Source of the DNA: Halicephalobus mephisto
Taxonomy: Eukaryota > Nematoda > Chromadorea > Rhabditida > Panagrolaimidae
DNA length: 64,000 nucleotides
NCBI GenBank assembly: GCA_009193035.1
Contig: SWDT01000092.1
Span: 496,001 to 560,000, forward strand
Reading direction: 5' to 3'
Shown here one piece after another: positions 21,792-30,160 of this stretch. Within the stretch, counting starts at the first letter, position 1; the number at the start of each line of letters is the position of its first letter. A program made the position numbers and the translations under genes. Under the pieces are notes generated by a model, which was not told the origin of the DNA, did not search any database, and worked only from the letters and a program-made list of their open reading frames with translations.

Positions 21792-23184
21792 ATGGCTGGG
21801 AGACTTGAATCGGACTTTTCTCTCCCGGCTGTAAGTGGAATAGGAAACATTGAAGCAACTATGAGTACAGTAATCCGATTGCTCCAAGACAATGAAGTCC
21901 TTTATTCTCATCAATTGAGGCATTTCTTCAGTTCGGGAGTAGTTGATCAATTCAAAAATCAATATCCAGATCTCCTGGATTTCTCTGGGAATGATATTTG
22001 TGAACTCATTAACTATGACGATGAATTTGGTCGAAAATTACCAACTAAAATCCGGGATTTCATCAATGATGGCAATTCTGTTTCTGTGGATGATTCTCAA
22101 CTAGTAACTCCATTGGATGAAAAAGTTCTTCCAAAAACCCTCTTCAAAGGAGTTTCTGCCAAAAAAGAACTTGAAATACGGTACTTGGCCAAATTAGTTT
22201 CTGTTGAATGCGAAAAATCAGGAATCAAGACCATTCTGGACGTTGGATGTGGAAAAGTAAGAGGTTTCAGAATTATGGTTAATTTTATTTTTATATTTTA
22301 GGGAAATTTCATGAGAGCTATGCATCATCTGGGATTTACTGTCCATGGATTCGAAGCTAATGCTGATTTTGTCAGAATTGGAAAGAAAGCAACTGAAAAT
22401 TATTCGAATTTGACTTTTACTCAATGTCATCTTGATAATTCTAATATTCAGATTCTCTCAGATATTACTGAGAATCCAGCAGCCATAGTTTCTCTTCATG
22501 GATGTGGAGATCTTCAAAAAACGATTGTCAAATTTTTTGCATCTTCTAAGAGTGACCGTATTCCGCTACTGATCACTGTTCCTTGTTGCTATCACAAGAG
22601 GACTGTTACTTCCATCAACGGCTGGACGATGAGCAGAAGTATGGACCGATTGCTTCATCAGAACAATATCAAAATCCCCGTTTCAGCTTTAAGAATAGCA
22701 GGGGATCAAGGCATCCATCGGTTCAAGAAAGGAACGAAAGAAGAAACAGCTAACCACAAAGATTCTCTTTTTTTTCGGGCCGTTTTCGACGAGGCTTTCC
22801 CGATTCAGTCTTGTGTTCGTTGTAGTTTTCAGAAATTGAAAACCACAAGGAATATTCCTTTAGAACTCTGTAAAATAGCGGACATTCCTGAAGCGGATTT
22901 AGAATCAAATATCCGCCAAGTGAGCCACATTTTAGAAAAACTCAAGAACGAAGACGAAACATTATTGAAGTACTCGGTAAATTTCTAATTTTGTCACATA
23001 ATCGCTGAATTATTTTCAGATTCTCCAATCAGCGATTCAACCAATTCTGGAGATTTTAATATTCATCGATGCAGCGTTTTGTCTTTCTGAATCTGGGAAG
23101 GATTCACAAATTCGTCAAGATCTCCCATTACAAGTTACGCCAAGAAATAAGGTCATAATTTCTCGGGTCTCAAACAATTTGTAA
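21792..23184 (+). CDS. METTL25: Methyltransferase-like protein, METTL25/RRNAD1 family
   Basis: Three exons: 21792-22256, 22302-22976 and 23020-23184. They encode 434 aa. The Rossmann SAM-binding motif I is ILDVGCGKGNFMR, created across intron 1. The next strand ends in VHGFEAN. The family's motif IV-like LHGCGDL and VPCCYHK are present; the CCYH cysteines and the C-terminal LEILIFIDA block are typical of METTL25/METTL25B. The N-terminal LLDFSGNDICELIN block is also conserved in this family. Substrate is unknown here; METTL25B acts on a ribosomal protein arginine in humans by my recollection. The stop lies 105 bp before the inverted repeat of the mobile element, so its 3' UTR may run into it. 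Confidence 0.85.
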
Positions 23185-23289
23185 AATATAAATTATAACG
23201 GGTAAAAATTCATAAAAAATAAAGAAATTATAAAAATTTTAAAACATGAATCAAAAGGATAAAAATTTATAAAAAATAAAGAAATTGTA

Positions 23290-23810
23290 AGTAGTATATA
23301 AAAGGCGTATCTAGGACAGCCGCAATTTTCCCCCACCACCCGCCGAGGCGCAGCCGAGGGGTAGCTAGGATTACCTGCAATTTTCCTAGATACGTCTATT
23401 ATAGTTGACTTTATTTCCAATATTTAAAATATAAATTAATAAAAAAATCCTATTAAATCAACATTCTCTCCAGATCTGGGACAGCCAAAAATTTCCCCCA
23501 CCACCCGCCGAATCACCACATCAATTTTAGAGCATAAATTAATAAAAAAGGCCTAAAATTAACAAACAATCATACAAAATTACTAGGACAACTTTCATTC
23601 CCCTCCAGACCTGGGACAACCCAGAAATCCTCACCACCCGCCAAACCATCACATCAATATTTATGGTACACACAGCTAAAAAAGTATGTAATTTATCAAA
23701 AAATGTCATTCAAAATCAAAATGCAGAATTATGATCCACCAGACCTGGGACAGCCGAGATAGCTCCGCCACTCGATAATCAAAATATGGTATAAAATCAT
23801 TAATGTAATT
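23290..23810 (+). repeat. Left terminal inverted repeat, modular
   Basis: About 520 bp. It contains four spaced copies of a module reading roughly CTGGGACAGCC, 2-5 bases, then AAATTTCCCCCACCACCCGC, at about 23310, 23475, 23605 and 23745. The outermost module carries a small palindrome (CGTATCTAGGA near 23305, TCCTAGATACG near 23385). Compared with the right TIR it has one extra module. Confidence 0.85.
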
Positions 23811-23848
23811 CTATTTAGTAAAAGTACAATAATTCAACGAAAAAGAGA

Positions 23849-25496
23849 TCATAAATTATTTATTTGATTGATTTTTTCTCGAACAACAGTAATATATTCT
23901 TTAAGGGTTTCCGTTCCCTTAGCGAATAGTAAATCGGCCCGGTAGAAAACATTTTTTTCTTCGTCTAGCTTTGCAAAGGCCATATCCAATTTTGAATTGA
24001 TTTCCCATTGAACGATGCACTCTTTCCCAATTTTGAGCTGTTCCTCGAACGTCATTTCCTAAAAAAACAAAACTCATTATCTTCTCAATTAATACAAAAA
24101 TACGTACCTTAACCAAGTCAAAAAATCGCCCTAAATTCATCTTCAGCTGAGCTACCAAACTCATCGCAGTCTTTGGACGATTGATTCCTTCGAAAGCAAC
24201 CGAGTTATCAATGAATCCAGTCCGGAAATCGACGATATATAAGGAAGCAGAAGTCTCGTTGAAGCCAATATTTTCAGCGTTCAGATCGCCTAATCCGAGA
24301 ATTTGAGCCAACAGAGATAACTGGATAATAGCTCTTGCAATTTCTCCTTTCTTCTTGGCAATTTTACGTTCGAAAGCATCCCTAAATACACATCAATTGG
24401 TAAGAGAAATTGAAACTCGAAATCAATCTTAAATAACTTTTAAAAACACTTACCAGTCCTTTTGCAGCATCGCCAAAGTTTTGAATCCGGGAATCTCTTC
24501 TCCACAAATATATACGATTTTGTCTGATGCAACAACATTAGGAATAAATTCAATGACTGCTCCGACTCCCAAAACCTCCAAAAGTTTGTAGATATATAAT
24601 TCGATCATGTTCAGAGGATCGCGGTGAGTAACTAAAATTTCAAAATAAAAGTACTGATTCACAGCAATGAACTTACTCGAAATACTTGATGCGTTGTGGT
24701 TTGTCTTCACATAAAAAACGCGTCGGGTGTCATCGAAACTTACAATACACATAGCCCCAGATCGAGTACCTAAATAATTTTTAAATCAAAATCAACATTA
24801 AATAAAATTATCCATACCAGAGGGTTTATCCTTGAAATCGACATCGATCAATTTATCGCTGAATTTGCGAATAAAGAACGATTTAGCAGCTTCTTTGATA
24901 AAAGTCGGAATATTGTCCAGGAAAGTGGCATATTCCCTCCGAATACGAAGCCATTGAATCATAAAATTTGCATAAGCAGTAAAAAATCCGGCTCCTTCTA
25001 ATAACTTTGACTGCTCATCAGCTTTAATGGCTTGTTCCTTTTTGCTACGGTTATCATCTGCTTTCCGAAAGTCTTCCACGAATAAGAGGTAGTTGGGCCA
25101 ATGAGGAAGTAATGCGTGCTTCTGAAACAATAGTAATTAATAAAATTAAATTTACAAGACGAGCTAATAAACAGTAAAATTAAATTATAAAGATTCAATA
25201 ATGATATCAAAATAACTTACTAATACGACAACCTCTAAGTTTTTGATGCCCACTTCCTCCAATTTCAATGAATCATCTAGCACATCAATAAGCTCCATAT
25301 TCCAGTTAAATAATTGCTGCCATTTCGGCTCCAAATAAAATATAGACTGCACTTCCTGTTGCAGCTGTATAATCGTTGCCTGAAAAAATAAATAAGATCT
25401 ATTCAACAAATTAAAACAAACCTTCTCCTGTAACCCGATAACAACATTGTGATGTTCCTTATTTTCATGATCAAATAGTTTGACACGTAGACGCAT
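23849..25496 (-). CDS. Ubiquitin-like domain + atypical kinase-like protein (mobile-element cargo)
   Basis: Seven exons: 25496-25422, 25379-25221, 25121-24818, 24769-24677, 24631-24454, 24381-24108 and 24058-23849. They sum to 1293 nt and give an open 430-aa protein. Residues 1-78 look like a beta-grasp ubiquitin fold (MRLRVKLFD at the start; NMELIDVLDDSLKLEEVGI at the end). A charged helical linker follows. Residues about 180-330 look like an APH/HipA/PI3K-type kinase fold: Lys201 in RVFYVKTN, Glu221 in MIELYIYKLLE, a catalytic-loop-like GLGDLNAENIGF (Asp302, Asn307) and Asp321 in YIVDF. Thus all core kinase positions seem kept. Ubl-plus-lipid-kinase fusions exist in plant PI4K-gamma. In nematodes a mobile 'kinase-related' family (krma) linked to Mavericks and MULEs has been reported; membership is a guess. 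A TTTTTTTAG acceptor lies 6 nt before the ATG. Confidence 0.7.
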
Positions 25497-25705
25497 TGTG
25501 AGCTAAAAAAATAAAGAGAATAAAATTGTGCATTAAAGCAATAGTATATGATATAAAGTCAAATAATACATGCAAAGTTCTGATATAAACAACAAAGAAG
25601 CCAAAAATTAAACTTGGCAAATCTAACACATAACGCCAAGACGAAAAAGCGCGCCAATTTGAATGCGTAAATTGGTCTTTATGTCTTCTATTGTTTACCA
25701 TAGTT

Positions 25706-26892
25706 TTAAATTTTATAATGTCCATGAGCTAATGTGTTAATTTTATTGTTACAAATATATCTTTTAAATTCTTCTTTGTTATCTTCATTCAATGCAACTT
25801 TATTTTGTTTTAGAGTATAAATCTGGTGTCTTTTAGCTTGAATCATGAATTGTTCTTTTCGAGTAACTTTTCCTTCAAACAAACATCCTTTAAAGTCGTC
25901 TAGTTTTAAAGTTTTGGTTACATTCTTCTTAACTCCTTTTGATTTCTTTTTCTCTTCTCCATCAACGCTGAATGCATATTGTTTTGGTTTTAGAAATACT
26001 CCTTCTTCCATAATCTTTCCATTCAACTCATCTTTGAACTTTCCAATCACTTTCTTATTGGATTCATCATATAATAGATGATCTTTTGGATAATCACTGA
26101 AGTCAAACCATTCTTTCATTTGACTCATATCTTTGTAAATATCTTCAGTTTCAATTTCATATATCAAACTGTCAGTGTCTTGATAACATAGTTTATGAAG
26201 ACAAATTAAAACTGAGTCTGTTCCTTTCAGAAATGGATCCTTATGATTCATCGCTCCGCGGTACTTTTTTAACATTACATCATAATGAAACTCATACATC
26301 AATATTTGCTCAAATCTAAAATACTAAATCCTACATAGATGGTTTATTAAATTCTAAGCTTGTCTTTTCATTTCAACACTCAATAAATTCTCATGAATGA
26401 TTATACTATTTTTAAAGTTGGTTTTCTAATTAATTTTAAAGCTTTATTTTCATCAGTTACCAATTGAATGTCTACTCTGTTTCGAATATTCTCCATTGTC
26501 TTTCTGAATGCAACATTGTTCATTAGTTTAAAGAAGTCCTTTTCGAAATCATTCTTAGCTTTAGTTCTCAGATTTGCATTCAACATTATATATTTTTTCA
26601 TCCAATTACTTTCCTTAAATGTCAAGATTCTGTGTATTTTCTTTAATTTCATCCACTTTGGCAGCGGTATATAAGATCCACCTTTAAATTGCTTATAACA
26701 TTTTGTCATTAGCAAATTATTGGCCCTCAAAAATGACCATCCTGAATCTTTTACTTCTTGTTTGTCAATCTTATCTTTCAGTTCATAACAAACATTTGAA
26801 TAGAATTCTTCTCTATCATCTTCTTGTAATAACGGTTGATTTTTAGTTCGAGCATAAAAAGTGATTGTCTCATCTATTCCAGGCTTTCCCAT
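25706..26892 (-). pseudogene. Broken Polinton/adintovirus-type DNA polymerase B
   Basis: Two open segments, 26892-26401 (163 aa) and 26302-25706 (198 aa), separated by about 100 bp with stops and frameshifts. The upstream segment joins an N-terminal block (containing [10 protein letters not shown]) directly to the palm region ([10 protein letters not shown]). The exonuclease region normally between them seems to have been deleted. The downstream segment keeps polymerase motif C as YQDTDS and the terminal INTLAHGH block common to these polymerases. A protein-primed polymerase of this group would copy the element's linear DNA. Here it cannot be functional. The reading frame lies about 210 bp upstream of the Ubl-kinase start, on the same strand. 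Confidence 0.85.
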
Positions 26893-27740
26893 TTGAACTT
26901 CTAAAGTGATTGTTATTTTTACATTTACTTTTCAACATTTCCGATTATTTTAGTTATTATTTCTTCATCATCTTTTGTTTCTGTTCTTTCTTTACATTTC
27001 ATACAGAATATGAGCCTGAAGGGCCCAATGCTAGAGAGAATCAATTCTTCTGCTTGCTTTGAATTGTAAACATTTAATTATTAATTATAATATTTTTATC
27101 TTTTATTGTTTTAATAATTAATAATAATCCAATTGTTGATAAATAATAAAGAAACAAGCTTATTACATAAAATATCGACAAATTTAAATGAAATTTTGAT
27201 TTCAAAATATAATATAATGAATATAATATAGATAAAAATGAATAAAGAATTCTTAACTTTCAAAGAATTAACTTTATTTGGGTACGTTAGTAGAATAAAT
27301 TTCTACTTAGTTGTGAACCCAAACGCACAACGATCATATGGATGAACGCTTTACGCTCATTTCCAAAGGAAATCTTAACTTTTCAGAATCAGTAACTATA
27401 AAAATAAATGGCGTGGCTAGTCTTACAGATGATAATTAAATCAACAGCTAACTGACACTTCAATAATTCTGATTATATAACAAATTCTTTATGAAAGAAG
27501 AATAAATCTGAATGACATGGGGATGAACGCTTCGCGTCCATTTCCTTTCGGAATACATTCAGTGAAAAATAATTCCACCTAGCCATGAACCCCAAATATG
27601 GCGATTTCCAAAAAGAATCTTAACTTTGATCATTCAGAATTGTAGGTTCCCGCGCCCGGCTGGGAACCTAAGAGAGATGGGATTGCAGAGCCCGCTCCCA
27701 CAGAATGGTACTCACTGGGTATGTTATTTCACTAATTCTA
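26893..27740. other. Non-coding interior of the element with diverged direct repeats
   Basis: Two related blocks, about 27265-27395 and 27495-27640, each hold a TTCYACYTAG...GTGAACCC-like start, a GATGAACGCTTYRCG segment and a TCTTAACTTT...TCAGAAT end. A GC-rich hairpin (AGGTTCCC...GGGAACCT, about 27644-27670) follows. No reading frame recognised. Confidence 0.5.
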
Positions 27741-27748
27741 AAAAATGT

Positions 27749-27960
27749 TATTATTTTGATTCATTTGGATAGATCCACCTATTGAATTAATAAAATATTT
27801 AAATAAAGATATTGAAATATCCACATTTCAGATCCAAAAATTTAATACACATCATTGTGGTTATTATGCTTGTTGGTATTAAAACTATTAGAAAAATATG
27901 ATTATAAAGATATTATTCTTCATTTAAGTTAAGGAATTATTCTCTTAGAAATAAAAATAT
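27749..27960 (+). pseudogene. Remnant of an adenain-like cysteine protease (Polinton PRO)
   Basis: In one frame YYFDSFG ends at a stop (27752-27772). The next frame opens with DPPIELIKYL and leads to FNTHHCGYYACWY, then a stop at about 27871. A third frame seems to continue (LEKYDYKDII). The order YFDSFG, P-P-x-E-I/L-I-x-Y-L, then an N-x-x-x-CG-x-x-x-C motif holding the catalytic Cys is that of the adenovirus-type maturation protease in Polintons. At least two frameshifts and one stop show that it is dead. Only the C-terminal third is recognisable. It lies just inside the right TIR, opposite in strand to the polymerase. Confidence 0.65.
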
Positions 27961-28039
27961 AGTAAATAATGTCAACAACTTGTTTTCTTTATTTTTCTAG
28001 TAATATCCTGGTACATAGTCTTGTCTCTATTTTTTCTTT

Positions 28040-28416
28040 ATTAATTTTTACCATATTTTTATCGACGGGTAATGGGGGTATCTCGGCTGTCCCAGTCTGG
28101 TGGATCGTAATTCCGCATTTTGATTTTGAGCGGTGTTTTTTGATAAATTACGTACTTTTTTAAGTGTGTGTACCATAAATATTGATGTGGTGGTTCAGCG
28201 GGTGGTGGGGGAAATTTCTGGCTGTCCCAGATCTGGAGAATGATAATTCTGAATGTTGATTTAATAGGATTTTTTATTAATTGATACTTTAAAATATTGG
28301 AATTAGAGTCAACTATAATAGACGTATCTAGGAAAATTGCAGTTAATCCTAGCTACCTCTCGGTGGGTGGTGGGGGAAAATTCCGGCTGTCCTAGATACG
28401 CCTATTATATACTACT
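28040..28416 (-). repeat. Right terminal inverted repeat, modular
   Basis: About 380 bp, the reverse complement of the left TIR with roughly 85-90 % identity by eye. It holds three modules, at about 28090, 28210 and 28370. Homology to the left copy runs through to the ATATGGTA...AATTAAT segment at the inner border. Confidence 0.85.
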
Positions 28417-29165
28417 CATATATTATTATTACTCGATGAGTTTCAAGTACTTGCTCGAAAAATAAAATTCTAAAAATATGAAAAATAAACTTAGTTATAT
28501 TAATTGACATTCCTATGAGACGAAAGTACCGTAATGCAATTGTGTCCCAGCACGACTCGTTATTTCTACGATATTATAGTTTTTTTATTCGTTTTTCTCC
28601 ATTTTGTGTAAAATTCGTTCTTTTGCTTGGAACATCTTTGGTATTTGGATTTCCATAATGTGTGTTTTTGAAGAAATCTCCTACGGTGGATGTTCGGATA
28701 ATCTTTTTGATTTAAGCATGTGTGTTCTTTACTCTTGAGATTTACGATAAAATTTGTCTTTTTAGCTGGCTTTACGACGTTATTGGCTGTATCAAATGCT
28801 GTATGAAAAAGTATTTTTGATCTTTAGGAAATCGTTGATACAATTGTAGACTTCGGTTGGAGTAATCTCAAACTCGGGTAATTTACTTTATTTAATCCAC
28901 GATATATGAAATTTATAAACGAAGAGGAAAATGTCGTCTCCGAACGAATAAAGAATGCTTTTTCGTCTGCTCGACAGAGTGGTAGCAATCCGCTGATTGG
29001 GTAGTTACCGTATTCATTACAGATACACCAGCAATAATCCGGCTATGAATAATGTTTGAGGTTTCTGAATGACTTTCAATTCGTGACGACAGTTCACGTC
29101 TTCGTCAGTTCGAACAGCTCAAACAAGAAAACATTTAGTGTAGGATCGTAGAAAGTAACACAATA
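28417..29165. other. Intergenic spacer
   Basis: AT-rich, 750 bp between the element and the 213-aa gene. It presumably includes that gene's promoter. Nothing specific seen. Confidence 0.4.
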
Positions 29166-29951: not shown

Positions 29952-30160
29952 GGGAACTTGCCTAAAAAATATAAAGCTTACAGGGGAAGGGGGTCCCAGG
30001 AAAGTTCCATGTAAGCCTTATATACTTAGACAAGATCCCTAAATTAAAAAAAGCTAAAATAACCTATAAGGGAGCTTGTCTAAAATATATAAGGCTTACA
30101 TGATGCTTTTCTGGGACCCCCTTCCCCCTGTAAGCTTTACATATTTTGACAACCTCCCTA
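29951..30160. mobile_element. Foldback / MITE-like inverted repeat, about 210 bp
   Basis: Left arm 29951-30040 and right arm 30069-30160 are near-perfect reverse complements, with a 28-bp loop. The ends read AGGGA...TCCCT. Each arm contains CTTACAGGGG, AAGGGGGTCCCAG and ATGTAAGCCTTATAT-like blocks. It has no coding capacity. It starts at the last base of the preceding stop codon, so a transcript would carry a long hairpin in its 3' UTR. Confidence 0.85.

Follow-up and report, generated by a model that had tools for sequence, protein, structure and literature searches.

The stretch analyzed here, hereafter the window, comprises 64,000 nucleotides of the nematode Halicephalobus mephisto (G000:C17:496001-560000, on contig SWDT01000092.1), and all genome searches covered the 59.9-Mb assembly of 331 contigs. 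Between positions 23290 and 28416 lies an element bounded by terminal inverted repeats (TIRs), in which an open, kinase-like gene stands beside the broken remnants of two genes of Maverick (Polinton) type. The left TIR (23290..23803, plus strand) begins with AGTAGTATATAAAAGG and recurs in other copies, and the right TIR occupies 28037..28416 on the minus strand. Between them lie a cargo slot (23804..25616, without strand) holding a gene for a 430-residue protein with a putative ubiquitin-like and a putative PI3K/PIKK-like kinase domain (23849..25496, minus strand), what is left of the C-terminal portion of a Maverick-type DNA polymerase B (PolB; approximately 25617..26931, minus strand), and the remnant of an adenain-type (Peptidase_C5) Maverick protease (PRO; 27566..27995, plus strand). 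For the surviving kinase gene, the best explanation is that it belongs to a mobile gene family under selection and sits, as a cassette, on a backbone that was already truncated; the element was compared with its relatives in the same genome. These copies are labeled by contig (C17u, C55b, C88 and so on), the window copy being on C17.

The inverted arms of the window element (23279-23803 and 28037-28427) pair in five main blocks with 76-94% complementarity. Its ends were set at 23290 and 28416 from other copies, which also start and finish with AGTAGTATA. When the whole genome was searched with a 26-base terminal pattern, allowing at most three mismatches, the motif was found at 53 places, while the reversed pattern used as a control gave none; chance is thereby excluded as the source of the repeats, and the TIR-bounded element proposed from the sequence alone is borne out together with its expected copies elsewhere. 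Both ends were examined in 12 family copies, which span about 1.7-5.1 kb. An exact 6-bp target-site duplication (TSD), a feature of Polinton/Maverick elements, flanks seven of them (C88, C304, C212, C314a, C314b, C55a and C65), and C79 has one with a single base different; the flanks do not match in the remaining four (the window copy, C93, C55b and C17u). The evidence for insertion with target duplication is therefore at the level of the family rather than of the window copy as a unit. An empty site or second allele was sought in the genome by way of the flanks, and each flank was found only once at full length.

Both Maverick genes in the window are frameshifted. The PolB stretch differs by four single-base indels (to within three bases) from all six copies compared, among them the more distant C314a, C314b and C93, and PRO differs by two frameshifting indels from all five sister copies compared, in which it remains open over 121-122 codons (pN/pS, the ratio of nonsynonymous to synonymous differences per site, is 0.37-0.98 on few changes). 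The profile PF03175 has no match in the window itself and reaches 24.2 bits in the aligned C93 copy (cut-off 25.8), and PF00770 gives an E-value of 0.002 in the aligned C129 copy, below its cut-off. Taken with the recurring TIRs, these PolB and PRO remnants uphold the Maverick-type origin suggested by the sequence-only reading, which was also right that both genes are broken. The window segment 26600-28036, covering the end of the PolB remnant and PRO, recurs at 94-95% identity in C304, C55b, C129 and C88, and over 1.23 kb in C17u, so that five other elements share a backbone stretch of 1.2-1.44 kb. The remaining 35 of 41 matches are short: one in C55a at 89%, four of 50-57 bp, and 30 PRO stretches at 72-81%. 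Longer stretches that run into the TIR are 91-96% identical between the window and the five sisters, and the part of PolB adjoining the slot is 83-91% identical. Because the sister backbones are shared and the indels are private, the cut-down layout predates the split of these copies and the frameshifts are specific to the window. None of the 12 PF00665 (integrase) matches in the genome lies on C17. Two fuller Maverick loci were found, C258 (G000:C258:77095-92117, with PolB in a 1354-residue open frame) and C264 (G000:C264:3026-11909), in each of which the matches to integrase, PolB and PRO fall within some 9 kb, with the same order and orientation in both.

The backbone is shared and the cargo differs. 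Homology between the window and the five sisters ends close to where the left TIR stops on its inner side (about 23755-23803) and returns at 25617-25706, the slot being the interval in between. Among the six backbone sharers, the slot holds the kinase in the window, a distant kinase in C17u (about 30% identical to the homologs P0001 and P0002), and protease-type genes in C55b, C129, C88 and C304. An N-terminal exon is common to C55b and C129 (57% over 40 residues) and is 64-66% identical to a protease-type gene on C69, while the label of C304 is drawn solely from its kinship to C88 (49% over 43 residues). Trypsin profiles matched below their cut-offs, PF13365 (Trypsin_2) with E-values of 0.014 in C55b and 0.067 in C88, and PF00089 with 0.0051 in the C69 piece; the C304, C212 and C146 pieces gave no trypsin match in a scan that left out C129 and C131. 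When the six slots were compared in all 15 pairings, DNA matches went no further than 23-37 bp. For the C129 element, no far end was located. Outside the backbone group, C55a holds a close kinase relative that lacks residues 188-271, C93 and C65 hold one common distant kinase, C209 holds the C17u type, and C212, C69, C131 and C146 hold protease-type genes; C314a and C314b have PolB only, and neither kind of cargo was found in C79 with the queries used. By the same queries, none of the elements examined carries both kinds. As a separate observation, the protease-type loci L043 and L055 (C69:33086 and C131:9084) have an identical 25-bp flank and similar genes, which would suit either a duplication or uncollapsed haplotypes.

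The gene model of the window cargo has seven exons on the minus strand (25496-25422, 25379-25221, 25121-24818, 24769-24677, 24631-24454, 24381-24108 and 24058-23849) and six introns of 42-99 bp, all GT-AG, and it reads through 430 codons without a stop, as had been predicted from the sequence. The domain assignment comes from homologs and weak domain matches. The window protein itself has no Pfam match above chance, PF00454 included, and matches in family members stay below curated cut-offs, both for PF00240 (ubiquitin; E-values of 0.00022 in P0006 and 0.0011 in P0012) and for PF00454 (PI3/PI4 kinase; 0.0007 in P0002 and 0.0087 in P0013). Residues 281-328 align weakly (E = 0.39) to the catalytic-loop region of ATM, and K201, D302, N307 and D321 are invariant across three full-length family members; we take these four to have kinase roles, going by known motifs. 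An AlphaFold2 model from a 12-row family alignment with P0001 first was too poor for use of the fold (mean predicted local distance difference test score, pLDDT, of 49.7), only the N-terminal ubiquitin-like part reaching 70-76 in blocks of ten residues. A family profile found weak matches only among solved structures (Smaug, E = 0.011; polyubiquitin, 0.032). Matches to KdpA, Pox_VLTF3, m04gp34like, WW and TCAD9 were below cut-offs and were put down to chance.

Fourteen homologs of the cargo protein were found, of which ten are named, all from nematodes and including Caenorhabditis briggsae CBG25851 (P0004), and four are unnamed. A tree of the family gave no resolved placement of the window gene. 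In the genome, 107 matches were grouped into at least 43 kinase loci, so that the window kinase is not a lone useful gene. Ten of the 43, among them the window's, have a terminus within 5 kb; the expected number is 0.31, and the loci are not independent of one another. Several features of the family were observed in passing. Kinase copies on C184, C7, C245, C146 and C216 (L008, L009, L016, L015 and L024) form a young group with no motif terminus within 4.6 kb, at 94-98% protein identity over common codons (C216 being outside this comparison), and the copies on C146 and C216 are broken. P0001 from Auanema sp. JU1783 and P0004 from C. briggsae are 89-90% identical over 212 residues, making them a candidate case of horizontal transfer. 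In P0003 of Caenorhabditis auriculariae, a kinase relative is fused to Ras-like and CortBP2 domains, perhaps through a wrong gene model.

The kinase lineage is under purifying selection. The pairwise ratio of nonsynonymous to synonymous substitution rates (dN/dS) between the window gene and the copies on C184, C7, C245 and C146 is 0.12-0.19, and it is 0.17 with C55a. On the window branch itself, where dS is about 0.6, we obtained 0.116 (95% bootstrap interval 0.067-0.187) with C7 and C55a and 0.125 (0.072-0.203) with C245 and C55a, each over 259 shared codons. Six frameshifts have accumulated in about 1.33 kb of PolB and PRO remnants, against none in the 1.29 kb of the kinase. Under equal decay this split has a probability of about 0.017 (0.507 to the sixth power), a value that presupposes an equally long association of all the parts, and the dissimilar TIRs make this doubtful.

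These TIRs also bear on how the window copy was assembled. Its left and right TIRs have a gapped identity of only 78% over 366 columns, whereas over its outer 341 bp the right TIR agrees with the left TIR of C55b at 98.8% (and with the right TIR of C17u at 97.9%), and the window element is therefore probably a recombinant, as judged from sequence comparison. In the TSD-bearing C88, C304, C212 and C65 the best match of each TIR is its own partner; in C314a and C314b this holds for the right TIR, while the two left TIRs match each other best and their own partners second. No TIR of the window copy, C55b or C17u matches its own partner best, and in each of C93 and C79 one TIR does. C17u (G000:C17:491991-495855; L063, L031) and C55b (G000:C55:1301597-1306326; L030, L058, L041) appear to have exchanged both flanks and TIR types: C17u has TTTTTC as its left and CCGAAG as its right flanking hexamer and C55b has the reverse, the left TIR of C17u is identical to the right TIR of C55b over 167 bp, and the right TIR of C17u matches the left TIR of C55b at 98.5%. 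A crossover between two elements would leave such a trace, and the pattern may mark a breakpoint of an inversion or translocation involving C17 and C55. A genome search for a reciprocal partner of the window's mismatched flanks, allowing at most one mismatch, gave none, and the window's left flank with its TIR variant occurs only once.

Recurring termini, TSDs in sister copies, a shared backbone, differing cargo, dissimilar TIRs and purifying selection on the kinase lineage are all supported directly. We think it fairly probable that the element is a non-autonomous, chimeric derivative of a Maverick whose cargo was exchanged by recombination among elements. A truncated backbone, consisting of the C-terminal PolB remnant, PRO and the TIRs and present at several loci, would most simply have been moved in trans by the integrase of fuller Mavericks in the same genome. 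A cassette some 1.8 kb long, made up of a single gene, its introns and about 120 bp of upstream sequence and placed between the left TIR and PolB, would have been traded among such elements through ectopic recombination in their shared sequence. The cassette of the window would be an intact kinase gene of a Maverick-linked family (krma-type), those of the sisters a distant kinase or a wosp-type protease gene, and the cargo protein would be under selection for a function that is selfish or that affects the host. The sequence-only reading had taken the survival of one cargo gene, amid loss of the element's own genes, as a sign that the cargo is useful to the host, is selfish or entered later. 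That the gene is open and constrained has stood; selective loss at this site is not the whole account, since six elements have the cut-down backbone in common while their cargo differs, and the survival of the kinase probably reflects, at least in part, cargo exchange. More broadly and more tentatively, truncated Maverick backbones of nematodes might serve as a cassette platform, in which a fixed slot by the left TIR takes interchangeable kinase and protease genes by recombination; we give this wider claim somewhat less than an even chance.

Several observations weigh against the exchange of cargo as set out here. The hexamers flanking the window copy (ATTGTA on the left, CATATA on the right) do not record its own insertion as a unit, and 33 of the 43 kinase loci lie more than 5 kb from any motif terminus. 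Dissimilar TIRs alone are no proof of recombination, because C55a combines a TSD with TIRs that are 69% alike and have better matches elsewhere, and C88 combines one with TIRs that are 83% alike. The swap between C17u and C55b could instead come from repeats misjoined in the assembly. Nor do the six backbones have a uniform layout, since C17u is without about 1 kb of the PolB remnant, and between C55b and C129 a weak alignment (78% over 1.25 kb, PolB included) extends about 0.3 kb beyond the slot edge. PolB and PRO are convergent in C258 and C264 and divergent in the window, so that the window backbone is not a plain deletion of their layout. Kinase and protease assignments alike rest on matches below curated cut-offs. 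Finally, gene conversion of the backbones would yield the same pattern as an exchange of cargo.

This last point amounts to an explanation of its own, in which the cargo genes have long resided in separate elements and conversion has kept the backbones alike. Besides predicting the same pattern, it would suit the way identity to the window climbs from 83-91% at the slot edge through 91-96% around PRO to 98.8% in the right TIR (against the left TIR of C55b). It departs from cargo exchange only in which part moved, and the reversed flank hexamers of C17u and C55b point to at least one crossing-over, unless they stem from a misjoin; we consider it unlikely, yet to be taken seriously. Most non-autonomous transposons arise through internal deletion, and another possibility is that each small element retained a different gene of an ancestral Maverick with several cargo genes, no cargo having moved. 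The fuller C258 locus, where a distant kinase match lies about 6 kb away from PolB and PRO, is in line with such an ancestor. Against it, six elements have a common truncated backbone at 94-95% and each fills the same slot with just one kind of cargo, the slot genes have the same orientation where it was read, the queries revealed no element with both kinds, and independent deletions would all need ends near 25617-25706. We regard differential deletion as distinctly unlikely. These explanations, and the two that follow, overlap, and their probabilities need not sum to one.

The other two concern why the kinase is kept. It could have been retained because it is useful to the worm, the rest of the element being decaying debris, and both the purifying selection and the contrast between the remnants of PolB and PRO, with six frameshifting indels private to this copy, and the kinase coding sequence, with none, would agree with this. 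However, the constraint was built up over a window-branch dS of about 0.6, probably for the most part before the gene joined this backbone, and the gene comes from a large, partly Maverick-linked family; host domestication thus appears improbable. Alternatively, by analogy with the Maverick-linked protease family of C. briggsae, the kinase may be part of a drive or incompatibility system. The msft-1 toxin of that species derives from a Maverick-associated protease family, according to a review (PMC12941216), and the relatives of the kinase include CBG25851 of the same species; no paired gene was seen inside the element, however, and a function for the kinase family finds no support in this analysis. 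A selfish role is accordingly somewhat unlikely, though a candidate worth naming. Exchange of cargo among truncated Mavericks remains the explanation that we prefer.

Outside the element, a methyltransferase gene (21792..23184, plus strand), which we take to be METTL25-like, ends about 100 bp before the left terminus; only two other nematode proteins matched its product, at 27-28% identity. The AT-rich segment directly left of the element (23172-23289) is a dispersed repeat that has 53 other matches across the genome, and a short inverted repeat at 29964-30147, with arms of 40-45 nt that are 80-89% complementary, resembles a miniature inverted-repeat transposable element. Rfam models gave nothing at gathering scores over the window.

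According to a meeting report and a review (PMC10680173; PMC12941216), nematode Mavericks carry genes from species to species and gave rise to a family of incompatibility toxins. Should small dead derivatives trade cargo at a defined slot, a single genome with no live element would suffice for studying how new combinations originate, and the presence of one intact passenger gene amid broken transposon genes would be accounted for. If the cassette platform is real, dead virus-like elements would keep making new element-cargo combinations as well as chromosome rearrangements, which fuller Mavericks could mobilize. The present case suggests that dead elements can still trade and ferry passenger genes.

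Widen et al. 2023 reportedly described nematode Mavericks with krma kinase and wosp protease cargo. The meeting report likewise presents wosp proteases and krma kinases as Maverick cargo transferred between nematode species (PMC10680173), and the review states that msft-1 of C. briggsae evolved out of a Maverick-associated protease family and that fungal Starship transposons carry Spok genes (PMC12941216). The cargo described here fits the krma/wosp account by kind of gene rather than by sequence comparison. No report of cargo exchange among truncated nematode Mavericks was found in the literature searched, Widen et al. 2023 being outside that search. With Polintons and Mavericks in general, the family shares PolB and PRO remnants, long TIRs and the 6-bp TSDs of sister copies, whereas the window element has lost most genes, has no TSD and lies on a contig without an integrase match. 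With the Starships and their Spok genes it would share the ferrying of selfish genes by a transposon family, but the elements and genes are unrelated and the selfish role is here only a candidate. The krma/wosp Mavericks come closest, having in common with our elements the Maverick genes and TIRs, the kinase and protease cargo, and kinase relatives in C. briggsae and other distant nematodes; in contrast, the elements described here are cut down to about 1.7-5.1 kb, hold one cargo gene in a fixed slot, and carry differing cargo on closely related backbones. The element itself is thus of a known kind, and the new part is the differing cargo on a common backbone.

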